Source: Xestospongia bergquistia (Eukaryota; Porifera; Demospongiae; Haplosclerida; Petrosiidae). Taken from it: a stretch of DNA of 64,000 bases. Shown in pieces: positions 29,984 through 57,015 of this stretch; position 1 is the first letter of the stretch, and every line of letters starts with the position of its first letter. The notes beneath the pieces are model-generated. The model searched no databases, was not told the DNA's origin, and saw nothing but the letters and a program-made list of their open reading frames with translations. A program made the translations under genes and the position numbers. Location: NCBI GenBank assembly GCA_963965975.1, contig OZ014424.1, forward strand, positions 744,001 through 808,000, in the 5' to 3' direction.

Positions 29984-30242
29984 AGTTGTTTTCCTGACCT
30001 TTAGAAATGAATATCATTTACAATATGATGAATATTATTAATAAGTATGGTAGAGAATATTATTAATAAGTATGGTAGAGAATATTATTAATAAGCATGG
30101 TAGAATAATTAAGTAATTGACTGGAAGTTTGCAATATGGAAAACACTAACTGATTAGCCTTTAATTAAGTTTTAATATCCTGTTTATTAACATGTGGTTA
30201 AAGAAGCTTTGATAATTATCTACTCAGCAAATATTAACAAGA
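29984..30242. promoter_or_regulatory. Bidirectional GH2 promoter with triple 26-bp repeat
   Basis: The 259-bp spacer between divergent GH2 start codons. Three copies of a 26-bp unit (AATATTATTAATAAG...) lie at about 30030-30105. The same spacer recurs at 34480-34686 with a single copy of the unit. Confidence 0.7.
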
Positions 30243-33161: not shown

Positions 33162-33700
33162 CAACACTTCTGTCATGCTACTTATTAAAGAACTAGCTAA
33201 CATTAGCTGTTGCATTTTATATTTTTGCTCTTTGCATTTTTCTGCTGTTACATTTAATCATAATTAGTTATAACTAATAATGATCTTATTAAATTAAATT
33301 ATAGATTAGAAGATGCTATAACTAGTTGTGTTCAGTTTCTGCTACCAATTTACTTAATATTACATAATCTTTTTGTCTCCTAACTCCAGTTGCTTTCCTT
33401 TAAATGCTGCACTCTACGAGATTACAACATTCAAAAAACAAGAGTACATTTAAGGTGTTTCCCATTATTCTTAGATTTCTTCTAAATTTTTACATCATAA
33501 TTTTCTTCTTGATAAGGTATTATTATATTTTATTATTGTATGTTTTATTAACCCATGTTGTTCATCGTTCTATGTGAATAACATTTTTAATTATTTTAAA
33601 ATTTAAACAAGGCAAACAACAGCTACTAATCAGCAAAATTTTCTGTTTGTTTTAATGTCCAGTTATATATTTAATTTGTGTTTATTTTAATGGTACCTGA
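33162..33700 (+). other. Duplicated 3' flank of GH2 copy 2
   Basis: AT-rich 3' flank nearly identical to 37609-38180 behind copy 3, marking the end of a tandem duplication unit. No gene is seen. Confidence 0.7.
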
Positions 33701-33970
33701 ACAAATACCATTGAGTTCAATATTAACCATTTTAATGATGTTTAATGTTGCTTGAACTAATGTAATTGGACACCATACAAATAGTTCCTATGGTGCCCAA
33801 TGGTGTTTCCATATAAACCACTTCTATGGTGGCCAATTGTGCTTGAAGACACACCATTGGACCGTAGAAACCATTTCTATTGTGCCCATTGTGCTGTGAG
33901 CAAGCATTGTCAGGCACCATAGAAATGTAATCTAAAGTGCCCAATGATACCTGAACAAACACCATTGAAG
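33700..33970. repeat. Short inverted-repeat family (GGCACCATAGAAA / TTTCTATGGTGCC)
   Basis: Several degenerate units of roughly 55-60 bp. Each contains an imperfect palindrome built from CACCATAGAAA and its complement, separated by links such as TGTGCTTGAAGACAC. The same family is at 38150-38450. It is non-coding and MITE-like in appearance, with no transposase. Confidence 0.8.
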
Positions 33971-33976
33971 TGTTTA

Positions 33977-34480
33977 TGATACCAAGTGACATTCTAAGGT
34001 AAGTAAGCTTACTTTTCTGGCCCATTTTCCTTATACACTCCAGTAATTAAACCATTATGAGGAACATCAATAACTTCCCAAGAGCTATCATCAAAATCCC
34101 TTGATGTAGGGCCACTTGTGGCAGGAGGTAGTGGTTTAGCTGGGACATCTCTCCCTCCACCAACCCATGTATCATCTTTGTGACTACAGTCACTGCTCTG
34201 TCCAATCCAACACCCAGTATTGTTAGAATACTGCCACATGATATGTCCACAACAAGCACCACGACAATCATCAGCATTACTGGCACTATTAGACTTAAGT
34301 CCATGACATGCACTATTGTACCCTCTTCTCCTATAAAGAACTTCCAAGCGAAATCAAAATTGATGGTCTCTCTTGGTGGTAGGTCTTATGCTTGACTGAA
34401 GGAAAGAGGAGAGGCTGAGGTAAGGAGAGTAATGAAGAATAATACATTATAAAAAGGCAAAAGAAGCTTCATCTTTTCTA
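33977..34480 (-). pseudogene. Truncated 5' copy of minus-strand GH2 gene
   Basis: Matches 29415-29985, the signal peptide through the start of the sugar-binding domain of copy 1. It has several deletions, and the reading frame is broken by a stop shortly after the signal peptide. Its 3' side ends at the inverted-repeat family. It sits head to head with copy 3, as copy 1 does with copy 2. Confidence 0.88.
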
Positions 34481-34686
34481 ACAAAGTTGTTTTGCTGACC
34501 TTTAGAAATGAATATTATTTACAATATGATGAATATTATTAATAAGTATGGTAGAATAAATTGACTGGAAGTTTGCAATATGGAAAACACTAACTGATTA
34601 TCCTTTAATAAACTTTTGATATCCTGTTTATTAACATGTGGTTAAAGAAGCTTTGATAATTATCTACTCAGCAAATATTAACAAGA

Positions 34687-37608
34687 ATGAAGTTATTGAT
34701 TGTTTTGCTCTCTATAAACCTCTACATGACTTCTATTATCACTTCATGTAATATATCACAAAGAGAAGTCATCAACTTTGATTTTGGTTGGAGATTTTCT
34801 CTTAATGGAGAAGGGTCGATAGTGAAATGTCCTAAAAGTGAGTTTCCACATAATCTTACCATGGCAGAGTGTTATGGTCTAAGAACATTTTATGCCAACA
34901 ATGCTGATGATTGTCGTGGTGCTTGTTGTGCTGATATTACATGTACTGTATGGTTATATTCAAACAGTGATGGATGTTTGATTGGTCGAAGTGATGATTG
35001 TAGTAGTAGCAACACTAAATCAACAAGAATGGGTGGAAGAAGAGACATTCCAATTAAACCATTGAATTTTACAACTAATGGTGCTACATCAAGAGATTTT
35101 GATGACAGTTCTTGGGAAGTTGTTGATGTTCCTCATGATGGTTTAATTAATGGAGTCTACTACAAGAATGGTCCTAGAGGACAAGCTTACTTACCTAGGA
35201 ATGTCACTTGGTATCGTAAACATTTCAATCTTCCTATAGAGTGGAAGGGTAGGTCTATCTGGGTATACTTTGAAGGAGTATTCCGGGCATCAACCACTTA
35301 CCTTAATGGACAAAAGTTGATATATCATGATTCTGGCTATACCAGTTTTTATGTTCGTCTTGACAATGCAACAAGTGTCTTTTATGGAGATGGTGAGGAA
35401 AATGAAAATGTCATTGCCATCAGAGCTTCTTCTAATGGTGGCTCAGGTTGGTGGTATGAGGGAGGAGGTATCTACCGACATACCTATCTTGTTAGTACAA
35501 ATCCTGCCCATTTTGTATCAGATGGTATCCATGGTGCTTCAAATGTAACAGGTGATATTCACTATCATGATCCTAATGATATATCCAAAGGTATGTATGC
35601 TGATACAGTTATGTTCAAGGTTACTGCTGAAGTAGTCAATGATGCCAGTGAAGAAGTGAAACTATATGTTCGTGCCAACTTGCTTGATGAAAATGGAAAA
35701 ATGGTTGCAAATTCTTCTACTCCTCCTAACACACTAAATGGTAGAGAAACTATTACTACAGAAAATGACTTATCTGTGTCTAATGTCGAGTTATGGAGTC
35801 CTGCTCGTCCCTATCTTTACACAATACAATGTCAAACATGGGCAGGTTGTGTTTTAGAAGAAATTAATATAACAATTGGTGTCCGTAAAACTCATTGGGA
35901 TGGTAATACTGGTTTCTTTTTAAATGGTGTTCACTTTACATGGCGTGGTTTTAACAACCACAATGATTTTGCTGGTGTAGGTATAGCAGTACCAGACAGG
36001 ATCAACCTGTTTAGAGGACAAGTTATGCGAGCTGTGGGTGCTAACTCATGGCGGATGTCCCATAATCCTCCAATTCCGGTTATGTTAGACATACTGGATC
36101 GTACTGGAGTGATTGTATGGGATGAAAATAGGGAATTTGGCAACAACTCTATTTGGGTTCAAAACCAGCAGGACATGGTAAGACGTGATCACAACCATCC
36201 TAGTGTTATGGCATGGTCCTTTTGTAATGAAGTAGGATGTAGTCTTGGAGACAATGAAGAGGATATAGCAATAGAGTTTAAAAAAGTGTCTTACAAAGAA
36301 GACATGTATCGTCCAGTTACAGGCAACATGAATGTTAACATTGGAGATGGTTTAACTTCACAGGTTGACGTTCAAGGAATGTCACACCAAACTGGTGATG
36401 TTTTTGATACCTTTCACAGTAAATTTCCCACTAAGCCAACCATTGGTTCCGAGTGTTGTTCTTGTGATACTCAAAGAGGCGAAGACTTTCCTGATAGTTC
36501 CAATCCATCCAGACCTACCATTAGTAATTTTAATGCAGACTGTTTAAGTGCACAAACAGAATATCAACTCAATAGAAAATTTGTTGCTGGATGTATGGTA
36601 TGGACATTATTTGACTATTATGGTGAACCACATTTTGGCTGGCCGCAAGTCTCATCCAGTTTTGGATGCATTGATCTAGCTGGATTTCCCAAGGCTTCTG
36701 CCTATTGGTTTAGATCATGGTGGCTGTATAATACAATGATGAACCATTCTACAGGTGGTAATGATTATCCAATCAATCCTCCATCACTTGTTAATCAAGA
36801 TAGTGCTCCATCTCAAGATAATGTTAAAGATGGATATCTAGTACATATTGTAGAACATTGGGAACCACATCCTGATGCTAACACTCGTACTATCCATGTT
36901 TATACTAATGCTCCCATGGCTGAACTCTTTATCAATGGTAAATCTCAAGGTGTACAACAACTGGTATGGCAGGGCTGGGCTCAATGGAGAGTTACATTTA
37001 TTTCTGGAAATCTAACAGCTACTTCTATCTCTGATCAGCATGTTGTCATGGCCACACATACAATATTAACTAGTGGTTCTCCAGCTAAGATTGTAGCTAG
37101 TATTGATGTCCCTAGTGAGAAGACTGGAACTGGATCTGCCCTTGTTCTAGATGGTCAAGACACAGGTCTTGTTCGGGCTTCCATTGTAGATTCAACTGGT
37201 CAAGTAGTTCCATCTGCATCACATAATGTATCATTTAGGATTGTAAGTGGTCCTGGACGGATCCTTGGAGTAGGCAATGGAGATCCAGCATGTCATGAAC
37301 CTAACCATGCATCATGGAGGAGTGCTTATCATGGTCTAGCTCGAGTTGTAGTCCAAGTGACAGAAGATCATGCTTCATCATCACAACATCGACATCGTCT
37401 GTTACAGATTGATAGAGATGGTGGTATTCGTACACATATTGGACATCCAGAAGTATCATCACCCTCAAGATTTGCTGAAGGTATTGTAGTAGAGGTATCT
37501 GCTCCTGGTGTGGGTAGTTCAACTGTGACTATTCCAGTGACTACTGATATTGTCACACATAATGTGTTGAATGTAGCTAAGAGATCAATGAAGTCAAATA
37601 ACCATTGA
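34687..37608 (+). CDS. Secreted GH2 glycosidase, copy 3
   Basis: A 973-residue single-exon protein, the closest relative of copy 2. Signal peptide MKLLIVLLSINLYMTSIITS, PAN-like insert (DDCRGACCADITCTVWLYSN), acid/base Glu515 (FCNEVGC), nucleophile Glu589 and the two C-terminal Ig-like domains are all present. Differences from copy 2 are scattered, mostly conservative changes. One Trp of the insert is replaced (DGCLIGRSD in place of DGCWIGRSD), which could affect that domain. Same upstream spacer as copy 2, with a decayed divergent partner. Confidence 0.88.
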   Translation: MKLLIVLLSINLYMTSIITSCNISQREVINFDFGWRFSLNGEGSIVKCPKSEFPHNLTMAECYGLRTFYANNADDCRGACCADITCTVWLYSNSDGCLIGRSDDCSSSNTKSTRMGGRRDIPIKPLNFTTNGATSRDFDDSSWEVVDVPHDGLINGVYYKNGPRGQAYLPRNVTWYRKHFNLPIEWKGRSIWVYFEGVFRASTTYLNGQKLIYHDSGYTSFYVRLDNATSVFYGDGEENENVIAIRASSNGGSGWWYEGGGIYRHTYLVSTNPAHFVSDGIHGASNVTGDIHYHDPNDISKGMYADTVMFKVTAEVVNDASEEVKLYVRANLLDENGKMVANSSTPPNTLNGRETITTENDLSVSNVELWSPARPYLYTIQCQTWAGCVLEEINITIGVRKTHWDGNTGFFLNGVHFTWRGFNNHNDFAGVGIAVPDRINLFRGQVMRAVGANSWRMSHNPPIPVMLDILDRTGVIVWDENREFGNNSIWVQNQQDMVRRDHNHPSVMAWSFCNEVGCSLGDNEEDIAIEFKKVSYKEDMYRPVTGNMNVNIGDGLTSQVDVQGMSHQTGDVFDTFHSKFPTKPTIGSECCSCDTQRGEDFPDSSNPSRPTISNFNADCLSAQTEYQLNRKFVAGCMVWTLFDYYGEPHFGWPQVSSSFGCIDLAGFPKASAYWFRSWWLYNTMMNHSTGGNDYPINPPSLVNQDSAPSQDNVKDGYLVHIVEHWEPHPDANTRTIHVYTNAPMAELFINGKSQGVQQLVWQGWAQWRVTFISGNLTATSISDQHVVMATHTILTSGSPAKIVASIDVPSEKTGTGSALVLDGQDTGLVRASIVDSTGQVVPSASHNVSFRIVSGPGRILGVGNGDPACHEPNHASWRSAYHGLARVVVQVTEDHASSSQHRHRLLQIDRDGGIRTHIGHPEVSSPSRFAEGIVVEVSAPGVGSSTVTIPVTTDIVTHNVLNVAKRSMKSNNH

Positions 37609-38150
37609 CAACACTTTTGTTATGCTACTTAATAAAGAATTAGCTAACATTAACTAATGCATTTCATATTTTGCATTTGTTCTGTTGTTACATTTAATCA
37701 TAATTAGTTATAACTAATAATGATCTTATTAAATTAAATTATAGATTAGAAGATGCTATAACTGGTTGTGTTTAGTTTCTGCTACCAATTTACTTAATTT
37801 TACATAATCTTTGTCTCCTAACTCCAGTTGCTTTCCTTTAAATGCTGCACTCTACTAGATTACAACATTCAAAAAGCAAGAGTACATTTAAGGTGTTTCC
37901 CTTTATTCTTAGATTTCTTCTAAATTTTTTCAAAAATTTTTACATCATAATTTTTTTCTTGATAGATAAGGTATTATTATATTTTATTATTGTATGTTTT
38001 ATTAACCTATGTTGTTCATCATTTAATGTAAATAGCATTTTTAATTATTTTAAAATTTAAACAAGGCAAACAACAGCTACTAATCAGCAAAATTTTCTGT
38101 TTGTTTTAATGTCCAGTTATATATTTAATTTGTGTTTATTTTAATGGTAC
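37609..38150 (+). other. 3' flank of GH2 copy 3
   Basis: Near-identical to the copy 2 flank at 33162-33690. No gene is seen. Confidence 0.6.
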
Positions 38151-38445
38151 CTGAACAAATACCATTGGGTAGATTATTAACCATTTTAATGATGCTTAAT
38201 GTTGCTTGAACTAATGTAATTAGGCACTGTAGAAACCTTTTCTATAGTGCCCATTGGTGCTGCGAACAAGCATCATCGGGCACCATAGAAACCTAATCTA
38301 AAGTGCCTAATGATACCTAAACAGACACCATAGGGCATCATTGAAACTGTTTCTATGGTGCCCAATTGTGCTTGAAGAAACACTATTGGGCACCATAGAA
38401 ACCATTTCTATGATCCCAAATGCTGCCTGAACAAACACCATTAAG
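38150..38445. repeat. Second array of the CACCATAGAAA inverted-repeat family
   Basis: Contains a perfect 14-bp-arm palindrome family: GGGCACCATAGAAA, a 3-base loop, then its complement, separated by about 25-bp links. It corresponds in position to 33700-33970. Confidence 0.85.
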
Positions 38446-38610
38446 CAAAATCAAAATTGATGCTTTCTCTTGGTGGTTGGTCCTGTAATTGAAAATTAAT
38501 TGTAATTGTAATAAATTGTAATTAACTGGTCAAGAGAGGAGATGATGAAGCAAGAAAAGTAGAGAGAAAGACTGTACAAAATGCAAACTAAATTTCATCT
38601 TGTCTAAGTG
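38446..38610 (-). pseudogene. Remnant of a third minus-strand GH2 partner
   Basis: The first block matches 29845-29890 (the codons just after the signal peptide of copy 1), and a second block ending in AAATTTCATCTTGTCTAAG matches its start-codon region. Only about 150 bp survive. It occupies the head-to-head position relative to copy 4. Confidence 0.75.
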
Positions 38611-38887
38611 ACAAAAAGGTGTTAATTGACCTTATACCTAAAAATGAATTTCATTTACAGTGAGATGAATATTAGTAATTAGTGCTATGAACTTGCATAA
38701 TGTTTGCCTTAAATGGTAGTTGATACTAATTCATTATCAGGGAAAGATTTGACATGTACTGTGAAAAATGTATTATTTTATAAAACAATATTCATTGTAT
38801 TAGCATGTAACAGCTTATTGCTCAACTGGCAAGTGCTGATAAAAATCAGCTTATACAAAAGGTCAGCAAGTCTATGCTACAAGTAAG
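38611..38887. promoter_or_regulatory. Upstream region of GH2 copy 4
   Basis: Partly similar to the other GH2 divergent spacers (ATGAATATTAGTAATTAG block near 38665) but without the tandem 26-bp unit. Confidence 0.4.
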
Positions 38888-41827
38888 ATGAGATTCTTTT
38901 CACCATTCTGTACTGTGATCCTCCTGAATGGCCTGCTTTGCTTGTCCTCTCCTCTCTCCTTCAGTCAAGTAAAAGATTCACCACCAAGAGAAACAATCAA
39001 GTTTGATTTTGGCTGGAGGTTTTTTCTTAGTAACCAAGGTTCAATAGTGCCTTGTCCTGAGAGTGAATTCCCACACAATCTTAGCAACATCCAATGTTTA
39101 GGGTTAAATGAATTTTCTGCCAGTAATGCTGATGATTGTCGTGGTGCTTGTTGTGCAGATATTATGTGTGCTATATGGCAATATTCTAACAGTGATGGAT
39201 GTTGGATTGGTCATAGTAGCGACTGTAATCATAAAAATAATGTCTGGGTTGGTGGAGGGAGAGATGTCCCAGCAAAACCACTACCTCCTGCCACGAGTGG
39301 CCCCACATCAAGGGATTTTGATGACAGTTCTTGGGAAATTATTGATGTTCCTCATGATGGTTTAATTACTGGAGTCTACTACAAGAATGGTCCTAGAGGA
39401 CAAGCTTACTTACCTAAGAATGTCACTTGGTATCGTAAACACTTTAATCTGCCTACAGAATGGAAGGGTAGGTCTATCTGGGTATACTTTGAAGGAATAT
39501 TTCGAGCATCAACCACTTACCTTAATGGACAGTTGTTGACATATCATGATTCTGGTTACACTAGTTTTGCTGTTCGTCTTGACAATGCAACAAGTGTCTT
39601 TTATGGAGATGGTAAGGAGAATGAAAATGTCATTGCCATCAGAGCTTCTTCTAATGGTGGCTCAGGTTGGTGGTATGAGGGAGGAGGCATCTACCGACAT
39701 ACCTATCTTGTTAGTACAAATCCTGCCCATTTTGTACCAGATGGTATCCATGGTGCTTCGAATGTAACAGGTGATATTCACTATCATGATCCTAATGATA
39801 TATCCAAAGGTATGTATACTGATACAGCAAATTTCTTCATCACTGCTGAAATTGTTAATGAGGTTGATGGTGAAAACAAAGTGTATTTCATGACCATGTT
39901 GTACGATGAAGATGGTAAAATGGTAGGAAATTCTTCTACTGCTCCAAACACAATGAATGGAGGAGAAACAATCACTGCAGTAAATAGCTACACACTGTCC
40001 AATGTAGAATTATGGAGCCCTGCACGTCCTTATCTTTATGTGCTATGGTGTCAGGTGTGGGTTGGAATTACTATTGATGAGGTTAATGTAACAATTGGCA
40101 TACGACAAACTCATTGGGATCCTAATACTGGTTTTCATTTAAATGGTGTCCACTTTACATGGCGTGGTTTTAATAATCATAATGATTTCACTGGTGTAGG
40201 CATGGCTGTACCTGATAGAGTGAATCTGTTTAGAGGGCAAAGTATGCGAGCAGTGGGAGCTAACTCATGGCGGATGTCTCATAATCCTCCAATTCCAGTT
40301 ATGCTGGACATACTGGATCATATTGGAGTGATTGTGTGGGATGAAAATAGGGAATTTGGTAACAACTCTATTTGGGTTCAGAACCAGAAGGATATGGTAA
40401 GACGTGATCGTAACCATCCTAGTGTTATGGCATGGTCCTTTTGTAACGAGGCAGGTTGTTATGTTGGTGACCAGGAAGAGGATGCTGCCAAACAGTTTCG
40501 ACAAGCCTCTTATGAGGAGGACTTATATCGTCCTGTAACGGCAAATATGTTTGGTAATTTAGGAAAAGGTTTGGCATCACAAATTGATGTGCAAGGATTT
40601 TCACATCAAGGTGGCAATATCTTTGACTCTTTTCACAGTAAATATCCTGATAAACCAACAATTGGCTCAGAATGTTGCTCCTGTGTAACTCAAAGAAGTG
40701 AAGACTTTCCCAATGGATCTGATCCTTCCAATCCAACTTTAGGGAACTTTAATGCAGATTGTTTAAGTGCACAAACTGAAAACCAACTCAATAGAAAATT
40801 TGTTGCTGGATGTATGGTGTGGACATTATTTGACTATTATGGTGAACCACATTTTGGCTGGCCTCACATATCATCTTCTTTTGGATGCATTGATCTAGCT
40901 GGATTTCCCAAGGCTTCTGCCTATTGGTATAGATCATGGTGGTTGTACAATGCAAAGACGAACCATTCTACAGGTGGTAATGATTATCCAATCAATCCTC
41001 CACCTCTTGTTAATCAAGACAGTGCTACATCTCAAGATAATGTTAAAGATGGGTATCTAGTACATATTGTAGAACATTGGGAACCACACCCTAATGCTAA
41101 CACTCGTACTATCCATGTTTATACTAATGCTCCCATGGCTGAACTCTTTATTAATGGTAAATCTCAAGGTGTACAACAACTGGTATGGCAGGGCTGGGCT
41201 CAATGGAGTGTTACATTTGTTTCTGGAAATCTAACAGCTACTGCTATCTCTGATCAGCATGTTGTCATGGCCACACATACAATATTAACTAGTAGTTCTC
41301 CAGCTAAGATTGTAGCTAGTATTGATGTCCCTAGTGAGAAGACTGGAACTGGATCTGCCCTTGTTCTAGATGGTCAAGACACAGGTCTTGTTCGAGCTTC
41401 CATTGTAGACTCAACAGGTCAAGTAGTTCCATCTGCATCACATAACGTATCATTTAGGATTGTAAGTGGTCCTGGACGGATCATTGGAGTAGGCAATGGA
41501 GATCCAGCATGTCATGAACCTAACCATGCATCATGGAGGAGTGCTTATCATGGTCTAGCTCGAGTTGTAGTCCAAGTGACAGAAGATCATGCTTCATCAT
41601 CACAACATCGACATCGTCTGTTACAGATTGATAGAGATGGTGGTATTCGTACACATATTAGACATCCAGAAGTATCATCACCCTCAAAGTTTGCTGATGG
41701 TATTGTAGTAGAGGTATCTGCTCCTGATGTGGGTAGTTCAACTGTGACTATTCCAGTGACTACTGATATTGTCACACATAATGTGTTGAATGTAGCTAAG
41801 AGGTCAATGAAGTTAAATAACCATTGA
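38888..41827 (+). CDS. Secreted GH2 glycosidase, copy 4
   Basis: A 979-residue single-exon protein. The signal peptide ends CLSSPLSFS, like copy 1 rather than copies 2 and 3. Its PAN-like insert and linker (GGGRDVPAKPLPPATSG) also match copy 1, while the sugar-binding domain from about residue 170 to 300 matches copies 2 and 3: a mosaic. Acid/base Glu521 (FCNEAGC) and nucleophile Glu595 (IGSECCS) are intact. The C-terminal third is nearly identical to the other copies. It is next to the metacaspase-like gene at 42005, convergent with it. Confidence 0.88.
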   Translation: MRFFSPFCTVILLNGLLCLSSPLSFSQVKDSPPRETIKFDFGWRFFLSNQGSIVPCPESEFPHNLSNIQCLGLNEFSASNADDCRGACCADIMCAIWQYSNSDGCWIGHSSDCNHKNNVWVGGGRDVPAKPLPPATSGPTSRDFDDSSWEIIDVPHDGLITGVYYKNGPRGQAYLPKNVTWYRKHFNLPTEWKGRSIWVYFEGIFRASTTYLNGQLLTYHDSGYTSFAVRLDNATSVFYGDGKENENVIAIRASSNGGSGWWYEGGGIYRHTYLVSTNPAHFVPDGIHGASNVTGDIHYHDPNDISKGMYTDTANFFITAEIVNEVDGENKVYFMTMLYDEDGKMVGNSSTAPNTMNGGETITAVNSYTLSNVELWSPARPYLYVLWCQVWVGITIDEVNVTIGIRQTHWDPNTGFHLNGVHFTWRGFNNHNDFTGVGMAVPDRVNLFRGQSMRAVGANSWRMSHNPPIPVMLDILDHIGVIVWDENREFGNNSIWVQNQKDMVRRDRNHPSVMAWSFCNEAGCYVGDQEEDAAKQFRQASYEEDLYRPVTANMFGNLGKGLASQIDVQGFSHQGGNIFDSFHSKYPDKPTIGSECCSCVTQRSEDFPNGSDPSNPTLGNFNADCLSAQTENQLNRKFVAGCMVWTLFDYYGEPHFGWPHISSSFGCIDLAGFPKASAYWYRSWWLYNAKTNHSTGGNDYPINPPPLVNQDSATSQDNVKDGYLVHIVEHWEPHPNANTRTIHVYTNAPMAELFINGKSQGVQQLVWQGWAQWSVTFVSGNLTATAISDQHVVMATHTILTSSSPAKIVASIDVPSEKTGTGSALVLDGQDTGLVRASIVDSTGQVVPSASHNVSFRIVSGPGRIIGVGNGDPACHEPNHASWRSAYHGLARVVVQVTEDHASSSQHRHRLLQIDRDGGIRTHIRHPEVSSPSKFADGIVVEVSAPDVGSSTVTIPVTTDIVTHNVLNVAKRSMKLNNH

Positions 41828-42886: not shown

Positions 42887-43290
42887 AGCTACTAAAAAGA
42901 CAACTTACTCTCTCAAGATATTTTACATATAAAGGTAGGTGGCGTATACTGTATTCCAGAAATTTTCAAGCATATACTTACAGCTAAAGCATATATCATG
43001 GAAGTTAATAGTGTTACTATACCACTATTGATTGTTAATTGATAGTGAGATGTCATACTAGCTGAGAGCATACATGAAATGATTTTGAACCAGATTTGAA
43101 CTTACTTTAAACAACTGTAATGTATTGTAATTTATTAGTTAGCTAGTCAATAAAGTATACTATACTCATTTTATGACCACAATTTACATGTATATCAATA
43201 CTACTGTTTATCAAGATTATTAATAGAAAATAATATTAAAATTAGACAATAGCAATGTACTTGTTTATAGATTAATATCATCTTTATGTT
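42887..43290. other. Spacer duplicated at 45290-45800
   Basis: Sequence nearly identical to parts of 45300-45800, the spacer between the second peptidase and its ligase. No gene is seen. Confidence 0.6.
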
Positions 43291-44072
43291 AATAAAGTGG
43301 TCGTTGTGCCTTTATATACTAAATCAATAGAGATTAAAAAGATGTCATTATAAAACAATTGATATTACTAAATAATAATAACTAACATCTTTTAATCTTT
43401 GGCGATAAAAATATCCAAGTTCAAACATTCTTTTTGGCTGTTCAGGTAGTCCCTCTCTCTCCATCAATTGTTTCAGTTCTTCCACTGACATCATGTCAAC
43501 TGGATCTAATTCAGATGCTGTTATTCTTGTGACCAAATAATCTTTATAATGTGTCCTAGTTATATAAAAGATTAATGTATATATTAAATATATCTTGTTG
43601 TCATACCTGCACAATCCACAACAACCAAGAAGTGGTTTATTTTGACACCAAGTTCTCTCCATACCCCATCTGCAACAACTAGGCTGTTTCGCAATTTCTT
43701 CTAGCCCAAATGGTCTTTCAGATTCTGTTAAATTATTAAAGATACATTAACAGTCACAACACTAACGAGCTCACCATCATCATAATAGTCCTCTACTTTA
43801 TCTGAAGTAACCTCATCAAAGGTTCATGTGAGTCTTTAAGAAATTTCTTGATTCATTCAAATGGAAATCTAGAAGATAATAACAACAATTCCATGGATGA
43901 TGAGCATGAAACCCCTTCATGTCACAGTTTGATGACACCTAACATTTCTAAGATATTGTAATATCAACGTTTCACATATACAGCTTACCTGCTCTTGTTT
44001 GAATGGTTTCTTGCAAAAGCGGCAAAAGTTATACTGACAGTTGGTGCAGTGGAAGTGATCACAACCAGCTGG
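43291..44072 (-). pseudogene. Truncated Death-domain/RBR ligase, LDD end only
   Basis: Contains copies of the last five exons of the ligase at 45805-51423: the YIKAQRPLY end exon, the THYKDYLVTRI exon (about 43550-43386), the CCGLC exon, the LDD exon (HHPWNCCYYL region, about 43800-43945) and part of the RING2 exon. The LDD exon has single-base deletions relative to 46291-46465, so the frame is broken. It stops abruptly inside the RING2 exon, where GH2-derived sequence begins. Confidence 0.88.
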
Positions 44073-45804: not shown

Positions 45805-48800
45805 TTAATAAAGTGGTCGTTGTGCCTTTATATACTAAATCAATAGAGATTAAAAAGATGTCATTATAAATCAATTGATATTACTAAATAATAATAACTA
45901 ACATCTTTTAATCTTTGGCGATAAAAATATCCAAGTTCAAACATTCCTTTTGGCTGTTCAGGTAGTTCCTCTCTCTCCATCAATTGTTTCAGTTCTTCCA
46001 CTGACATCATGTCAACTGGATCTAATTCAGCTGCTTTTATTCTTGTGACCAAATAATCTTTATAATGTGTCCTAGTTATATAAAATATTAATGTATATAT
46101 TAAATATATCTTGGTGTCATACCTGCACAATCCACAACAACCAAGAAGTGGTTTATTTTGACACTGAGTTCTCTCCATACCCCATTTGCAACAACTAGGC
46201 TGTTTCTCAATTTCTTCTAGCCCAAATGGTCTTTCAGATTCTGTTAAATTATTAAAGATACATTAACAGTCACAACACTAACGAGCTCACCATCATCATA
46301 ATAGTCCTCTACTTCATCTGAAGTAACCTCATCAAAGGTTTCATGTGAGTCTTTAAGAAATTTCTTGATTCGTTCAAATGGAAAATCTCGAAGATAATAA
46401 AAACAATTCCGTGGATGATGGGCATGAAACCCCTTCATGTCACAGTTTGATGACACCTGACATTTCTAATATAATTGGAAGTAATATTATCATTTCACTT
46501 GTACAGCTTACCATTCCTTGTTTGAATGGTTTCTTGCAAAAGCGGCAAAAGTCATACTGACAGTTGGTGCAGTGAAAGTGATCACAACCAGCTGGATCTT
46601 GTTCAAACGAACTCTCACAATTTGGACAAACTATTAAGAAAAGATTGATATAAATAATTATCATTTAATTATTCATTCAATCCTAATTACCTATATGAGT
46701 AATTTTGATAAACACAGCAATGGTTTTCATTGTTTGTTTGTCACTCTCCAATGTTGCAATGTTTCTACATGAGTTATTTTGACAATCCTCATCTCCTTCA
46801 CACTGCATATATATAGTAATGGTTTTTATTGCTATAATGCTGTTTTATCTCACCCTTTGTCCACATTGAGGACACATGTATACACTACATTTAAAATTTG
46901 GACATTGAACCTTTAAACAATCCAATCTTTCCTTCAAAAATGGTTCATAACACTGATAATGAAGTAAGCATTTATTATACAAATAGTAGAAAAGGAACTT
47001 ACTTGAGGACACCATATAAGTTGAACATTAGGTATATTCCTGACGGTATATTCTGCAAGTTTCTTCAGAAATAACTGGTACACTTCTTCTACATATCTCT
47101 CTACCTACAAAACGATGACACCAGGAACACAAGCATTAATTTGTTAGATTATTATTATCTTCCTTTACTTACCAATCTTGAGAGAGACCAGAAATATTTC
47201 TGTGCTTCTCGTGACAAAGGTCCATAAGAGATTTCAGGTTCACCACATACTGGACAAGTGAAATGTTGTATAGCTTTTTCTGTGATTGTTATTGTGAAGT
47301 GATCTCTGAAACAATCATTGCATATAGAGTGGGTACAGCAAACCATCTCTACCATCTACAATGAAGAGGTTATATGTATTCATTATAAAAACAATGTACA
47401 TACTTTATATTTTTTGTATGAATCCGTACAAATAGGACACTCAAGCACTTTTTCTTCTTGATCTTCAATTTCTAGATCTTGTGAATCATCTGTAGTACTA
47501 CTAAGAGAAAGCTCATTCAAACATTCACTTTCCTTGCAGAAATGTGTAATTTTTTCATCACACTATAATAACAAATAAGAACAAAGTCATTGAAGTTTAT
47601 AGCTATACCACTTCTTCTCCACAATGAATACATATGTAAGTTTGGCAATTTGGACATTTGGCTACAAAACAGTCTAGTCTCTCTTTTAAGCCTGGTTCAT
47701 GACACTACAATAATAAAATCATTCAAAAGGAAGGAGCTCCATAACATTAAATGAGACTCACATTAGGGCACCATATTAGTTTAGCATTTTGTAGATTATA
47801 TGACCAATATTCTGTTAATTTATGAAGAAACAGCTGATAAACATCTTCGTTTATATATGTCTTAACCTGTAAAGGTACATTAGGCATTTATAACTATACA
47901 TCTTTACATATAAACTACTTATATTATGTAACTAAAAATTTTGCATTACATTTGATTGAGTTAGAGATATTAATTAAGACTGTTACTGTAAAAAATCATT
48001 TTGAAGCTGTTTTTGTTGCAATAACATATTAAGGTTTGCTTAGAATTGAGAGTCAACAAATCAAATATATAATGAATTAAAGCTCTTACCAGTCAAGCAG
48101 TCATTGTCTGTCACATTGTTCATCTTGTCCCCAGTCCCAGATCCTCCCACATTTCCTGGAGGTGTGTTGAGCTAGGGACAAGACTAGGCACTTGTGTCAA
48201 AGGTAACCAGTCATTATATATTAGAATATTCTTTTTAATAGCCACATATTCTGACAAAGATGGACATACACACATACATTATAAAATAACTACAGGGTTG
48301 CCTAGCACCCAGTGTGCCAAGTAGAAAAATCATTATTATCTTACTAAATAAGAGAGATGTGCAAAGTAGATCTGATTTCTTGTGGAAATGGGTCTATTAA
48401 AAGGAATGACAGGTTGACTACATTCCTGACAATGGAAGTAATGAATGGTCTTCTCAATGATGATAGAAGTGAACTGGTCTCGAAAGCAAACTTTACAGAG
48501 AGCATGATTGCAATGAACCATATTAACCATCTGTAAATTATTAACGCTAACTAATTTTGTTAATATATCAACTAACCTCGTAACCTGTGTATAACATTAT
48601 ACAATTTGGACACTTTCTCTTTCCACTTGTATTCCATGTTAAAGTTTGAACATCTGTCATAGTAGTAGAACTAGGCAAAGTGGAGGAGCCTTTCGTTCGG
48701 AGTACTACTTCCTCTCTCAAGACATCAATTTGAAATTGCTTTTCTAACACTTCATTCCTTAAAGAACACACTTCATTCTTTAGAGAACACACTTCATTCT

Positions 48801-51423
48801 TAAGAGAATGAACATCTTCCTGTAGGTAACAATAATAAACAATAATTATTATACAGATTGAGTACTTTAAGGTATAATATAAAATGGCTAGATTGCTGAA
48901 AACGACTTTCAAAAACACGTCTCTCCTCCAGCAACATCTGACGGAATTCATTAAACACTGACACAGGTATAGTTGGTTCTTCCCCATAAAAAGGTCTATT
49001 ATTAGAATAAAAGAAAAATGTAATGACATTGGTGCTAACCTTTGTCTTGCAGCAATACCACTGTCACCAGTATACCTATATGGTCCCATCCTATCATGGG
49101 TGTATCTATGTTGCCCAATACCACTTTCGCCAGTATACTTATGTAGTCCAATACCACTGTCACCAGTATACCTATGTGGTCCAATACCACTATCACCAGT
49201 ATACTTATGTAGTCCAATACCACTGTCACCAGTATACCTATGTGGTCCCATCCTGTCATGGGTATACCTATGTGGTCCCACACCACTCTCACCAGTATAC
49301 CTATGTAGTCCAATACCACTCTCACCGGTATACCTATGTGGTCCAATACCACTAGCACCAGTATAGCTATGTGGTCCAATACCACTCTCACCAGTATACC
49401 TATGTGGTCCAATACCACTCTCACCCGTATACCTATGTGGTCCAATACCACTTGCACCAGTATACTTGTAGGGTTCAATACCACTGTCACCAGTATACCT
49501 ATGTGGTCCCATCTTGTCACGGGTATACTTATGTGGTCCAATACCACTCTCAATGACATTCTTATAAGGTCTGCTCTCAACATCATCATCAACAGAATGC
49601 AACTTTATTTCTGGTAAAGGTTGTTGAATTGTTCTTGGTGTGGGCACAGGCACTTCAGTGAGTTCTCTTCTTCTTAGCCTTGGCTTAGGTACAGGCTTTT
49701 GTAAAATAGGCACCAATTCTACTGCACTTGCAAGGTTCTCTGAAGACGATGTTAATGATCCTTCATCAGACTATATAAATTATAAGCATGTATTGATAGT
49801 TATCATTATAATAAGTTAATTGCTTGCCTGTAAAGGACTTTCTACATTAGAAACATTGTCAATATCATTTTCCACAAAAAAAGGCTGTGAGTCTGGTTTA
49901 GTTGGACTAAAAATCTGTATATGATTTGTGTGTATGTGTGTGTGCAGGGAGATAGACAACAATGATATAAATTGATATAAATATTCTAGTCATAATGTTT
50001 CATACATTTAGTATATTGGCAATAACAGTTTATATATTAAATACATTGGAGTATAGAATTTCAGTGTTAGCACTGTAACCACAGTATATTATTAACTTAC
50101 TGTCGGTGGTGTAAATGAAAAAACAACTTCATTGCCTACTGTCAGAGAAAGAGCACCATTGTTAAAGAGGAAATCAATTTTTGCTCCAACAAGATCAGCT
50201 ATGACAGTTGTTAGGTGTGCAGGAAACTCCCAGCTCACAACAACAGAGCCAGAGGAAACAGAAAAATGTAGAAGCACATTTTTGTGGACACGAAACACGT
50301 CATACATGAGCTTTTCAAGAGCTTTTAAAGTACAATCTAGCCACTGTTCATTGAGTACAAGATGAAGGATTTCATATTGTGATCCACTAGGCTGTAAACA
50401 TTTATCAACATCTTGCTTTAATTCTCGGAGTGAGGTGCTCTCAAGAAACACATTCAAAGATATTTCATAGTTGGCAATGCATTGGTTTGCTTGACGATTA
50501 GGTGATGTTTGAAATACATGTTGTGATAGTATCATTTTCAGAGCCTTGACACGAAACATATCCACTAATTCAAGTACTTTGGCATAAATCTCATCAAATG
50601 TCTGGCACATAACAAAACATTCCATGCAAAAAAAGCCTGCTAGAAATCTTTTAAGATCACTGGTCTTCCTTTTTTGGTGGAAGAATGGACTACGTAAGTG
50701 ATCTTTGATCAATCTTCCTAGGGTAGCTACTAACTGGCCATATCTAGCTTGTAGATCCATGAGACGTTCATGGACATCAGAGTTGACACGTATTAAAGGA
50801 GGAACAGGTAAAGAAATGGGATCAGAGGTGAGAGTACCATCACCTATTAATCAAATAGTGTATATCAAATTGTAATCAAGTAGTTTATTTTTAGTTTATT
50901 GAACATAAATTACCTAGTTTTGTATCATGGGCAACTAGGGATGAGACTACTCCAGCTGGTAGCCCATGTTAACTTAGAACTTTATATTATGAATAGTCTA
51001 ACCTTGGAGATAGCATTAAACTTAACGTTATAAAAGTCATTATAAATATCTACATTTACATAATTACTAGACAACTTGTTCTCTTACTAGACAACTTGTT
51101 CTCCTTACCTCTTCCATCTGAGTATGTTCTTGAGCAATACTTGGAAGCCAAGTTAGTTGCTAGTTCACACTCTGAAGAGTATTTCAATGCTGCAGCAATT
51201 TCAGCCCAGTTTGCATTAGGATTAGTGTCAAGCCAGATATCTAGCATCTCTGTGAGACATCTCATAGGGTCAGAATATTGTTGACTAATTTTATTGAGCT
51301 TGGCCTTAGAGAGATTTAATTGAATACCCAAATTGAACCAATTCACCCCGTCGAGTTCTCTGACCAATACAGCTAGATCCATGCTATTTTGACCTGTTGA
51401 TTCCCTTGACGTTTGGTGTGTAT
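45805..51423 (-). CDS. Death domain - double RING/IBR - HOIP-like RBR ubiquitin ligase (copy A)
   Basis: About 19 exons in consistent phase. Order: Death domain (51423-51109; VLVRELDGVNWFNLGIQLN), uncharacterised module (50846-50101), linker exons, an exon with fifteen 10-11-residue repeats (49770-49040), coiled-coil exons with NEVCSLKNEVCSLRNEV, a first RING1-IBR (48.6-47.6 kb; VHCNHALCKVCFRDQFT), a second RING1-IBR (47.5-46.7 kb; CPICTDSYKK, CTHSICNDCFRDHFTI), RING2 (46630-46512) with the catalytic Cys codon at 46584-46586 in PAGCDHFHC, and the LDD (HAHHPRNCFYYLRD, THYKDYLVTRI). RING1-IBR-RING2-LDD matches HOIP/RNF31, which makes Met1-linked ubiquitin chains. A likely last exon (45834-45805) ends YIKAQRPLY. 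The first exon seen in copy B (MASLLTLK) has lost its ATG here, so translation may begin at Met 51382. Cytosolic. Confidence 0.85.
49050..49552 (-). repeat. Coding 33-bp minisatellite (fifteen SGIGPHRYTGE-type units)
   Basis: Inside ligase copy A. Units read SGIGPHRYTGE with substitutions at a few positions; three units are one codon shorter (RMGPHRYTGD type). The array ends at the exon border. No equivalent exists in copy B. Rich in Gly, His, Tyr and Thr; probably a flexible or binding linker. Confidence 0.92.
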
Positions 51424-52185: not shown

Positions 52186-55100
52186 CTATTTAGTCATATA
52201 ATAATGTATAATTACAAAAAGTACAAACCAAAAAATCAATAACAAAGTTAGAAAAAATTGTAGAGAGGTCATTTTTGGTTGATATAGTGGTTGCTGACTC
52301 TTTATATACTATAACAATAGAGATATTGCAAATATCAAATAACTAAGCAACTAACATTTTTTAATCTTTGATGATAGAAATATCCAAATTCAAATCTTCC
52401 TTTTGGCAGTCCAGGTAGTTCCTCTCTCTCTATCAATTGTTTCAGTTGTTCCACTGACATCATGTCAACTGGATCTAATTCAGCTGCTTTTATTCTTGTA
52501 ACCAAATAATCTTTATAATGTGTCCTAAATATAATAGATTAATATATATATATATATATCCAACTAGTAAACAGTGGTGTCATACTCGCACAATCCACAG
52601 CAATTAGGATGACATTTCTTTCCACACTGTGTTCCTTCTATTCCCCATTTGCAACGTTCTGCCTTATTTTTTTGTTTCCTTTGTGGTCTTATAGATTCTG
52701 TAAAACATTCAAATTTAAATTAATCTTGACAAATCAGTTCACCTGGTAGCTGATTCGGAGTGTCCTCTTCAAAGGTTTCATATGAATCCTTAAGAAATCT
52801 CTTAATGTGTTCAATAGGAAGATCTCGAAGATAATAAAAACAATTCCTTGGATGATGGGCATGTAAGCCTTTCATTTCACATCTTGGTGACAACTGGCAT
52901 TGCTAAAGGAATAATTTTGACTATACAATTATTACCAAAAGAGTTTATAACAAACCTTTCCTTGTTTGTATGTACTCTTGCAAAAACGGCAAAAGTCATG
53001 GAAACAGTTGGTGCAGTGGAAGTGATCACAACCAGCTGGGTCTAGTTCAAATACACACTCACAACTCGGACAAACTATTAAAGGAAATTGAAACAAGGAA
53101 AAAGGAAGTATTTTATTATACCTATATGAGTGATGTTGATGTATTTAGTTATGGACATTGGAGCTTTCCTGTCCCTTTTAAAAGCTGTCTTGATTCTATA
53201 CATCAAGTAACTACAATAATGTTCATACTACAATTGAAATAAATATAAGTTACAATGTATCTATAGACAACGAATTCACCTTTTTTCCAGATCGAGGGGA
53301 CATATATATTCTACAATTGACATTTGGACATCTTACTTTGAAGCAGTTTGAGTTCTCTTTCAAAAATGGTTCACAACACTAACAGGCACAGATACAGTAT
53401 TTTGTTAACAGATTAGCACTTTAGCATACTTGAGGACACCATATAAGTTTATCATTTGGTATAGTCCTAGCAGTAAATTCCGCAAGTTTCTTCAAGAGTA
53501 ATTGGTACATTTCTTCTCCTACATACTTTTCTACCTATATGGAATGTGAAATTCCACTAACAGTATATACATAATACTACTTACTAATACTGACAGGGAC
53601 TTAAAATATATCTGTAGTTCTGTTGACAGGTCTCCATGTGAGATTTCAGGTAGGCCACATATTGGACAAGTAAAATATTGAATGCTTTTCTCCTTGATTA
53701 CTATTGTGAAGTGAGCTTTAAAACAATTTTTACAGATGATATCAGAACAATTAATCATCTGTATCATCTGTAAGAATTAGAAATAATATTCAACAGTGAT
53801 TTAATACTGAAATACATGAAACATACTGCATCCTCTTTGTAAGAATCCATACAAATTATACATTCGAGTAGTTTCACTTCTAGGACTGGGGTCTCTTGTA
53901 AATCTGTTGCATCACATTTCTTGCTGGTCACAGCACATATTTCTCTCCAAGATAATGGCTCTTGGCAATCGTAATCACTTGCATAAGGACATTTTACTTC
54001 AGACTCTTTGCAATCAGTAATTGTTCTTTGCAAACAGTTCCTATAAGTTACCAGTCCACTCATTTCTTATGACATGCTTTTTTTAATGCTTACATGCAGA
54101 TTGTATGAAGGCATCCTCTTAATCTAATCCCATCACCAGGATCAATATCAGTAAGACAAATGGGACATTTAAACATCTCTTCATTGGTTACCACTGAAAG
54201 TTTGTCAGTTTTCAACAATCTCAAGTAGTTCTCTTCTGCTTCCAGTTGTTCCTGCTGATGTTCCAACTCAAGAAACTGCCAAGATAGATATATCGATAGC
54301 AAAGAAAGTTTCATTTTTTCAAAATATGAAATATATTTTCTTACCTGAACTATTTGTTCTTCAGCTTCTTTATCTTTTTCCAAAATCATTCTTTCATCAA
54401 CAGTGGGAATGATATCAGGAGGAGGAATATAACTGTTTGGTCGTGTTGAGCCACACATTTCACAACCAGGACGATATGGTGTATTACAAAATGTGCATTC
54501 TTTACATAACCATCCAACTTTATACTTGGGCAGAGGAGGAAGTTGTTCCTTTTCAATCACATCCTTTCGTCCCTCTTCTGCCGTATAGCCTCCTTTAGCT
54601 CTAACTTCCTCTCCTCCTTCTCCTACTGTATCCTTTCTATCATGGCCTGAATCTTCTTGATAGCCTCCTATATCTCTAATGGGCTGTAAGTGATCCTGAA
54701 TATTTGTAACAGACCTAGGCATAGAAGATCTCCTCATTTGAAGTACTTCATCTTTCAAAAGACCAATCTGTGCTAATATATCATTCCTTGAAGAGCGAAC
54801 ATCATCCTGCAAGCAACAATTCATAAAAAATGCGGTGATAAATGTTTACCTGAAGATATAATATCAAATTGTTAGTTTGCTGAAGTTGATGTTCAAATAT
54901 ACGTCTCTCCTCCTGTAACATCTGATGGAGCTCATTAAAAGCAGACAAAGGTATTGTTGGTTCTGAATGAGCTGACAATTTTACAGCAAGGTCTTCTTGA
55001 GGTGATGCTAATGGTTCTTTGTCAGACTAAAATTTGAAAACATATAATAATTTACTTGTTATTGTTACAATAATTCTTGCCTCCAGAAGAGTCTCTTCAC

Positions 55101-57015
55101 TTGAAATGTTCTCACACACAACTTTCTTAAAAGATGAATAATCTGTTAATGTTTGTTGGTCTGTGATAGTAACCTGTTGGAAAAAATAGAAAAAGAGGAA
55201 GATTTAAAGAGAGTGAAATAACAGCTGCAATAACTACTTTGATTTACCATAATTGGTGGAATCAAGACTTTTTTGCCTATTGCTAGACAGTGAACACCAT
55301 TGGCAGAGAGGATATCAATCTTTGATTTAACGAGATCAACTATGATAGTTGTAAGGTGTGCAGGAAACTCCCAACTCACATGAAGAGAACCAGGGGAAAT
55401 AGAAATATTTAAAAAGACATTCTTGTGAACAAGAAACACTTCATGCATAAGTTTATCAAGAGCTTTCAAAGTACAATCCAGCCATTTTTCTTTGAGTACA
55501 AGATGAAGGCACTCAAACTGTGATCCACTAGGCTGTAAACAAGTATTGACATCCTGCTTTAATTCTCTAAGTGAAGTGCTCCTAAGAAATACATTTAAAG
55601 AACTTTCATATTCACTAATACATCTGTTTGCTCGACTGTTTGGTGAGGCAAGAAAGACATGTCGTGATATAACTGTTTTCAGAGCTTTGATACGAAACAT
55701 GTCCACAAATTCAAGTACTTTGGCATAAACCTCATCAAATGTCTGGCACATGAGAAAACTTTTTTATCGAAAAACCCTGCTAGAAATGTTTTAAAATCAT
55801 TCATCTTTCTTCTTTGACGAAAAAATGGCTGCCTTAGATGACTTTTAACTAATCTTCGTAGGTCAGCTACTAACCGACCATATCTAGCTTGTAAATCTAA
55901 AAGGCCTTCGTAGATATCAGAATTAACACGTATTAAATGAGGACCAGGTGATGGTGTGGGACCAGGAGTAGAACTATCATCATCTAATAGTAAAACAATA
56001 TATACTTATAATAAAGTACATATTTGTTAAATCTTTCATAGGTAACTAGATATAAGGATAGCCTGGGATTTTCATAAAGAGGATAAGGCACTGCATTCAT
56101 TCCCTCCTTCCTCTTCCCCACCAAGCACCCTCTCCCCAAAAATTAGAAATGTAACAAACACAATACATAGGATTACACTTTGACAAATGAATTCATTATC
56201 ATTCATTTTATTGTCATAAAGTCATATATCATAATAATATATGTAGGAGGATTTTACATACTGTACTATGATGTTTATGTAGCTGACAAAAAGTGTTAGA
56301 AACACATTTTGTCTTGAAATTGTTTTAAGGATGAATAAACTATATGACTGAGTCCTGGTCAGATGGGATATGAACCTGGGACATTCTGAACACTAGTCAA
56401 ATGTTCTATAGATAATTGTCTTAAGAATAATTGGATTTCTATTTGCACCCTGTATATCTTGAAACATTATCCCACATCCTACACATTCCAATGTAACACA
56501 GGACATGTGGATGTAATATTTACTTGAACCAATTGAGCATGCATTGATTGACATGACAGACTTATACCAAAGGCTTATTAGATAAGTACTAATTACATGC
56601 TCCAATCTTCTTTTACCTTTTTCCTCTGTATTTACACTTGAGCAATACTTGGATGCCAAGGTTGTTGCTAGGTCACCCTGTGAGGAGCGTTTCAATGCTA
56701 CAGCAATTTCGGCCCAGCTTGCATTGGGGTTAGCACGAAGCCAGAAGTTTAACATCTCAGTCAGACACTGTATAATATCATAGTAATATTGCCGATAAAT
56801 AATTCTGAGTTCAGTTTGAGGGACATTTAACTGAGTGCCCAGTTCAAACCAATCCACTCCCTTTAGCTCTCTGACCAAGACAGGGAGGCTTAGACCACTT
56901 TGTTCAGTTGACTCTCTTGGGATTAAGTCCACATCTTAAAATAAAATAAAAATAAACAACCTTGAAAATATTCACAATAAAACAATTTACCTTTAAGTGT
57001 CAGTAAACTAGCCAT
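52186..57015 (-). CDS. Death domain - HOIL-type NZF/RING - HOIP-like RBR ligase (copy B)
   Basis: About 17 exons in matching phases. Order: MASLLTLK (57015-56991), Death domain (56934-56617; VLVRELKGVDWFELGTQLN), uncharacterised module (55983-55258), linker, coiled coil (EERRIFEHQLQQ), an NZF finger (GWLCKECTFCNTPYRPGCEM, about 54490), helical linker, a HOIL-1L/RBCK1-type RING (54275-53827; RLRGCLHTICMNCLQRTI then CPYASDYDC and SWREIC), HOIP-like RING1 (CIICMDSYKED, CSDIICKNCFKAHFTIVIKE), IBR, RING2 (53074-52956) with the catalytic Cys codon at 53028-53030 in PAGCDHFHC, and LDD (HAHHPRNCFYYLRD). A linear-ubiquitin ligase function is inferred. Oddities: one base is missing near 55757-55770 relative to copy A, breaking the module frame; several IBR zinc ligands are replaced (YMSPRSGKK for YMCPQCGQR). 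It is either recently disabled or affected by a sequence error. Confidence 0.8.

Follow-up and report, generated by a model that had tools for sequence, protein, structure and literature searches.

A predicted sponge gene joining HOIL-1L NZF-RING1 to HOIP RING1-IBR-RING2-LDD, with a Death domain encoded upstream

In mammals, the linear ubiquitin chain assembly complex (LUBAC) consists of the separate subunits HOIP (RNF31), HOIL-1L (RBCK1) and SHARPIN and makes head-to-tail ubiquitin chains; PUB, UBA and UBL domains tie the complex and its partners together, and Death domains of the kind considered here recruit it. We analyzed a 64,000-nucleotide window of the sponge Xestospongia bergquistia (contig OZ014424.1, positions 744001-808000, from a genome of 146 Mb in 21 contigs), in which a minus-strand gene at window positions 57015-52186, predicted from genomic sequence, encodes HOIL-1L-type and HOIP-type parts in one frame; as it is followed by two tandem copies, we call it copy 1. 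RNF31 is reported to be widely conserved in metazoans, one proline-rich motif being absent in Porifera (PMC12778051). LUBEL, the Drosophila HOIP orthologue, is described as producing Met1 chains without HOIL-1L or SHARPIN (PMC5090701), and in LUBAC the HOIL-1L RING1 is reported to cross-link to the RING1/LDD of HOIP (PMC8245127). We found no description of a HOIL-1L/HOIP fusion or of a sponge LUBAC architecture in the literature searched, which covers few subscription papers, and a natural fusion of this type in a sponge is unreported as far as these searches go.

The HOIL-1L/HOIP fusion

We modelled 17 exons from reading frames and splice sites, encoding in order a Death domain, a domain that we call X, a probable coiled coil, a HOIL-1L-type NZF-RING1 and a HOIP RING1-IBR-RING2 (RBR) with its LDD. 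The evidence for each assignment is given in brackets:

56991..57015, minus strand: exon 1, ATG, 8 codons and 1 base, with a GT donor, phase 1 into exon 2
56617..56934, minus strand: exon 2, Death domain
55248..55983, minus strand: exon 3, X domain with a one-base frameshift inside (reading frames; relatives in the genome)
55759..55775, minus strand: frameshift within exon 3 (copy 1 one base short against copy 2)
55081..55173, minus strand: exon 4, GC-AG donor
54850..55026, minus strand: exon 5, probable coiled-coil linker (coil by eye; corresponding stretch in copy 2)
54345..54806, minus strand: exon 6, probable coil and HOIL-1L-type NZF, the latter at ~54518-54438 (PDB RBCK1 NZF 3b08, 8.8e-11)
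54094..54275, minus strand: exon 7, linker and first half of the HOIL-1L-type RING1 (PDB match; intron positions as in the separate HOIL-1L gene, L018)
53827..54040, minus strand: exon 8, junction exon, with the end of the HOIL-1L RING1 (to ~53932), a short linker and the start of the HOIP RING1 (from ~53871) (single open frame; kept in P0014 and P0015)
53585..53767, minus strand: exon 9, remainder of the HOIP RING1 (PDB match, alignment)
53430..53534, minus strand: exon 10, helix before the IBR and first IBR zinc ligands (alignment)
53280..53378, minus strand: exon 11, IBR, first zinc site kept, two second-site ligands changed to Ser (alignment)
53122..53227, minus strand: exon 12, IBR end and IBR-RING2 linker (alignment, intron comparison)
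52956..53074, minus strand: exon 13, RING2 with catalytic Cys (GCDHFHC) and active-site His (PDB match, alignment)
52743..52902, minus strand: exon 14, LDD zinc finger and HHPRNCFYYLRD (PDB match, alignment)
52586..52697, minus strand: exon 15, LDD (Pfam, alignment)
52356..52524, minus strand: exon 16, helical part of the LDD (Pfam PF18091)
52186..52308, minus strand: exon 17, HOIP-like last exon with an extra hydrophobic tail from 52281 (stop of copy 2 lost; intron comparison)

Exons 4-17 are wholly open, with GT-AG or GC-AG splice sites, and the introns between exons 3 and 17 are all at most 74 bases long, leaving little space for a gene boundary. We replaced a GT donor of exon 4 at 55069 by the GC donor at 55081 since a GC donor stands at the corresponding position of copy 2; the Pfam, PDB and first protein-database searches used the 55069 donor, which makes exon 4 four codons longer.

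The two halves of the ligase were assigned by phmmer searches of PDB sequences, in which the NZF-RING1 part best matched RBCK1 (7yui, 4.2e-33) and the RING1-IBR-RING2-LDD part matched RNF31 (5edv, 5.3e-50), while the best other RBR ligase listed was RNF144A at 3.1e-3. The LDD is recognized by Pfam (PF18091, 4e-12), as is the Death domain, which has a six-helix Death fold and exceeds the Pfam cut-off; the NZF match covers query residues 190-246. The RBCK1 match stops at query residue 348 and the HOIP match starts at 368, so that the IBR-RING2 of HOIL-1L is not present after its RING1. In a RING tree, the first RING groups with HOIL-1L and the second with HOIP (split 100/100), in line with the HOIL-1L and HOIP identities given in the preliminary description.

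The transition between the halves lies within a single 214-base exon (exon 8, 54040-53827) in one frame and is therefore not a gene boundary; a break between 53.8 and 54.1 kb, for which the preliminary description had allowed, is ruled out as this exon spans the region. The likeness to HOIL-1L stops at an intron position of the separate HOIL-1L gene, an intron that the fusion lacks. Moreover, the junction exon recurs in both candidates examined, which come from ENA contigs outside this genome and from one or two other species, namely P0014 (94% identical; one contig of 232 kb) and P0015 (84% identical; 9 members on 2 contigs, the longest 4.5 kb). Searches with the junction found no match in viral contigs; a short 37% match in Eubacterium, from prokaryote contigs, was taken as chance. 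Pfam listed neither PUB nor UBA at E <= 1 with the exons in three pieces, although short divergent UBAs can escape such a search, and it listed no UBL in copy 1, where it should be noted that even the UBL of the separate HOIL-1L scores only E 0.014 over a partial stretch. Judged from these sequence comparisons, we are nearly certain that the NZF-RING1-RBR-LDD fusion is real.

State of the ligase and of its reading frame

We compared the zinc ligands over 39 Cys/His columns common to three vertebrate HOIPs, the ligand columns being read from the Cys/His pattern. Copy 1 keeps 31 of these columns, copy 2 33 and the separate sponge HOIP 34. In RING1, seven of eight ligands are kept and the fourth is Asp, a position at which the separate sponge HOIP carries Glu. 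RING2 preserves its Cys ligands, the catalytic Cys, both His of the HFH motif and the active-site His, and the Cys and His at chinchilla HOIP 881, 883 and 885 are conserved; the catalytic Cys of human HOIP is reported as Cys885, and a RING2-LDD fragment of HOIP is described as positioning the acceptor Met1 at this Cys (PMC5413910), which makes Met1 chemistry plausible for copy 1. The LDD keeps the YLRD acceptor motif and its zinc finger, in which one Cys has moved just as it has in the separate sponge HOIP. The catalytic Cys and LDD of the preliminary description are thus present, with active-site and acceptor residues intact. By our own matching, the YLRD motif would hold the Arg and Asp that are said to matter for Met1 chains in LUBEL (PMC5090701), and, in our reading, the NZF appears to have counterparts of both T203 and R210, reported to matter in the HOIL-1L NZF (PMC8245127). 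A self-contained linear ubiquitin ligase is plausible, and we lean slightly towards copy 1 making Met1 chains.

Pairwise Nei-Gojobori ratios of nonsynonymous to synonymous substitution (dN/dS), in which copy 1 is not isolated, lie between copies 1 and 2 at 0.30 (Death), 0.25 and 0.36 (the two parts of X) and 0.39 (RBR-LDD); NZF-RING1 of copy 1 against the separate HOIL-1L gives 0.34. These five multi-exon or domain comparisons span 0.25-0.39, and single RBR-LDD exons 0.16-0.63.

Several observations weigh against a working one-chain ligase with a Death domain. Death and the ligase are in different frames owing to a one-base shift within exon 3 (55775-55759); against copy 2, copy 1 lacks one base at this site, which adjoins an A-run, and the upstream frame stops at 55682 while the downstream frame is open to the end. 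The start codon and donor of exon 1 look, by eye, unconserved in copy 2. The second zinc site of the IBR is lost (Ser, Ser, Cys, Tyr; that is, Ser in place of two Cys, Tyr in place of another Cys, and Cys in place of His), leaving four of eight ligand columns and the first site. The counterparts of T786, V789 and L790, described as residues of the allosteric ubiquitin site of HOIP (PMC12441119), look changed in our own column mapping. Finally, an intact fusion protein was not found at 461-1466 aa (2 matches among the 7989 candidates scored, those sharing most words), nor was it found in the protein database at 424-1349 aa (11 matches among 4100 candidates, none of them the fusion).

No cryptic intron that would restore the frame at 55.77 kb was seen by eye, and the corresponding exon of copy 2 is unbroken. 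Because exon 3 is otherwise intact, we attribute the frameshift to an error of the assembly or to a lesion that is recent and may be polymorphic. One protein including Death probably is, or recently was, made. Of the proposal in the preliminary description that a single gene encodes Death and ligase in exons of compatible phase, the HOIL-1L/HOIP portion holds, whereas Death is out of frame as assembled; its built-in recruitment domain is likewise backed by the gene layout and by copy 2, with the frameshift of copy 1 speaking against it.

Separate genes, X domain and tandem copies

Separate genes for HOIL-1L (its RBR at ~317.9-319.8 kb; PDB RBCK1 5.2e-86) and for HOIP (~1072.4-1079.8 kb; RNF31 1e-101) lie on the contig of the fusion, the latter with a PUB-like stretch at 27.6 bits, under the Pfam cut-off of 34.3:

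G000:C14:313000-322900, same contig as the fusion: L018, separate HOIL-1L locus
G000:C14:1066500-1080400, same contig as the fusion: L019/L020, separate HOIP locus

Therefore, the fusion is an extra, derived gene and not an alternative ancestral state, and the contrast with the separate HOIP and HOIL-1L of vertebrates drawn in the preliminary description needs amending. The segments of the fusion are 59-61% identical to the HOIL-1L and 38-39% to the HOIP of this genome. In the shared stretches, 11 of 12 introns of the separate genes have a same-phase counterpart in the fusion, 8 of them at the identical column. All nine HOIP introns have a same-phase intron (six of them in the same column, the remaining three displaced by 1, 4 and 7 columns), and two of three HOIL-1L introns agree in column and phase, the third, at the edge of the fusion, being absent from it. 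These shared introns indicate that the fusion arose from intron-bearing genomic pieces. An LDD profile search of the genome gave five matches at four loci, namely, the three tandem copies and the separate HOIP. A Pfam search for OTULIN (PF16218) matched neither this genome nor any of 14 controls, so that its negative outcome carries no weight.

In L018, the UBL-like and NZF parts of HOIL-1L are preceded upstream by an open stretch (~9676-9080, minus strand). A PDB search with this N-terminal part of the separate HOIL-1L returned designed repeat proteins only, with no significant stretch, and a SHARPIN-like reading of it was dropped. Several head-to-tail repeats of a segment that takes in the end of a HOIL-1L RING2 exon and its donor (GGGGACCTAAGGTAAATC) lie at ~4960-4700 (minus strand).

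The X domain corresponds to no Pfam family. An AlphaFold2 model of X from copy 2 has a predicted local distance difference test score of 70 (moderate confidence), and its comparison with PDB folds gave no match at E <= 0.001, the best being 0.053. A genome search with X of copy 2 returned at least 96 matching stretches, three of which are copies 1 and 2, and we read five X or X-like loci (L022-L026). L025 holds Death (2.7e-7), X and ankyrin repeats in one open frame, its X being 31% identical to that of the fusion over 121 residues (E 5e-11). L022 holds X (E 5e-12) and ankyrin repeats beside a Death-like open reading frame (ORF) that has no Pfam match, and L023 X and ankyrin repeats, with no Death seen. 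Leucine-rich repeats (LRR) accompany an X-like exon in L024 and, with Death (5.6e-8), in L026; both X-like exons resemble X of the fusion weakly, that of L026 at BLAST E 0.002, 18% identity and a profile probability of 22%. As predicted arrangements, Death-X with ankyrin repeats at one locus is secure from L025, and Death-X-LRR is tentative from L026. In copy 1, the predicted ubiquitin ligase occupies the place of the repeats, the sensor's place, behind Death-X. An X-like domain also occurs in the Amphimedon queenslandica protein P0012 (RanBP-type and C3HC4-type zinc finger-containing protein 1-like); this domain is 60% identical to that of L026 and matches X of the fusion directly at E 0.67; no match to P0012 above 60% identity was found in this genome among the 74 of 525 candidates scored.

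Two further copies follow copy 1:

45805..51423, minus strand: copy 2, with Death, X, short repeats, probable coil, a HOIP-type RING1-IBR and then RING1-IBR-RING2-LDD
43289..44072, minus strand: copy 3, a RING2-LDD fragment, broken by eye

Copy 2 has Death (4.9e-8) and X in frame, short GIGPHRYTGDS-like repeats, and two HOIP-type RING1-IBR units with one RING2-LDD; it retains the order Death-X-RBR, and the NZF-RING search of the genome gave no match to NZF or HOIL-1L RING in it. Copy 1 has lost the stop that serves copy 2 (and, judged by eye, copy 3) and has gained a hydrophobic tail with a maximum 19-residue hydropathy of 2.82. Values of at least 2.5 occur in 11 of the 1151 ORF ends of at least 27 aa in the window and in 56 of 2000 stop-free tail shuffles (from 20,000), so that tails at least nearly as hydrophobic make up ~1-3% of comparable cases; the tail may serve as a membrane anchor.

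At ~51780-51690 (minus strand), we found by eye a second version of the final exon of a squalene/phytoene-synthase-like gene that lies upstream (PF00494 1.5e-36); it probably marks where the tandem duplication is bounded. Beside the tandem copies there are two caspase-like single ORFs that closely resemble each other (45304-44405 and 42904-42005, minus strand) and score 16.2 and 15.3 bits for Peptidase_C14, under the cut-off of 21.4. Four similar single ORFs of 981-994 aa lie at 27038-41827, and the one scanned (27041-30013) matches glycosyl hydrolase family 2 domains (PF02836 3.8e-19).

Competing readings and comparison with known systems

We favor the reading that copy 1 is a fusion of HOIL-1L NZF-RING1 to HOIP RBR-LDD behind a Death-X-coil head, working as a one-chain LUBAC core, at a probability of about 0.5. 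The two ligase parts would have been joined in the sponge lineage by exchange of intron-bearing genomic pieces. In the protein, the NZF would bind ubiquitin, the HOIL-1L RING1 would sit beside the HOIP RBR as in assembled LUBAC, the HOIP RING1 would load E2~ubiquitin, and RING2-LDD would hand the ubiquitin to the acceptor Met1; PUB, UBA and UBL would be unneeded for holding two fused halves. Through Death-Death contacts, the Death-X head, which the Death-X-ankyrin gene also has, would bring the ligase to sensor assemblies. A wider and rather doubtful proposal is that a single-chain LUBAC arose naturally in sponges and that its Death-X head docks directly onto sensors of the Death-X-ankyrin (perhaps also Death-X-LRR) type, so that these would signal to linear ubiquitin with no LUBAC complex in between, while the tail of copy 1 might also anchor it to membranes.

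That copy 1 was once a working fusion and is now a decaying duplicate is unlikely, yet it is the rival that we take most seriously, given the frameshift, the lost IBR ligands and stop and the broken look of the nearby copy 3. On the other hand, exons 4-17 are wholly open with proper splice sites, the pairwise dN/dS values are well under 1, though copy 1 alone is not isolated in them, and the junction exon is conserved in P0014 and P0015. It is improbable that the locus makes two proteins, Death-X apart and a Death-less HOIL-1L/HOIP fusion whose translation begins at an internal Met within exon 3 or further on: this is what the assembled frames would yield, but the intron from X to the ligase has just 74 bases, copy 2 shows the same order, and L025 encodes Death ahead of X within a single open frame.

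The loss of the second IBR zinc site and the apparent changes at the allosteric site would also fit a ligase-dead or altered scaffold, which binds ubiquitin and E2 and makes few or non-Met1 chains for want of a proper IBR. We give this little chance, since the RING2 and LDD residues are intact, RING1 keeps all but one of its ligands, and it is the RING2-LDD fragment of HOIP that is reported to position the acceptor Met1 at the catalytic Cys. Apart from the oddity of the architecture, nothing favors a chimera created by misassembly of distinct HOIL-1L and HOIP genes; we reject it as hardly credible, since the junction lies within one exon, recurs in two other public sequences, and joins segments well diverged from this genome's own HOIL-1L and HOIP.

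The contribution of the HOIL-1L half to HOIP catalysis is hard to isolate in a mammalian LUBAC of separate subunits; a natural fusion keeping only HOIL-1L NZF-RING1 and HOIP RBR-LDD suggests which parts suffice and offers a candidate single-chain enzyme, and a Death-X head common to a sensor-like gene makes an early-animal tie of linear ubiquitin to Death-domain signalling testable. Copy 1 resembles LUBAC in its HOIL-1L NZF-RING1 and its HOIP RING1-IBR-RING2-LDD, where the catalytic and acceptor residues are preserved, but it is predicted as one polypeptide in which the HOIP RBR replaces the HOIL-1L IBR-RING2, and it has a Death-X head, a degenerate IBR and no UBL, PUB or UBA detected by Pfam. 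As with LUBEL, Met1 chains might need no more than one protein with RBR-LDD at its end; the domains described for LUBEL, however, are B-box, NZF and UBA, and no HOIL-1L or Death part (PMC5090701). P0012 shares the HOIL-1L NZF-RING1 (53% identical over the shared part) behind an X-like domain, although this domain is only distantly like X of the fusion and the protein continues as a complete HOIL-1L IBR-RING2 without a HOIP part. In L025 of the same genome, Death is followed by X in one open frame as in the layout of copy 1, with ankyrin repeats where copy 1 has the ubiquitin ligase.

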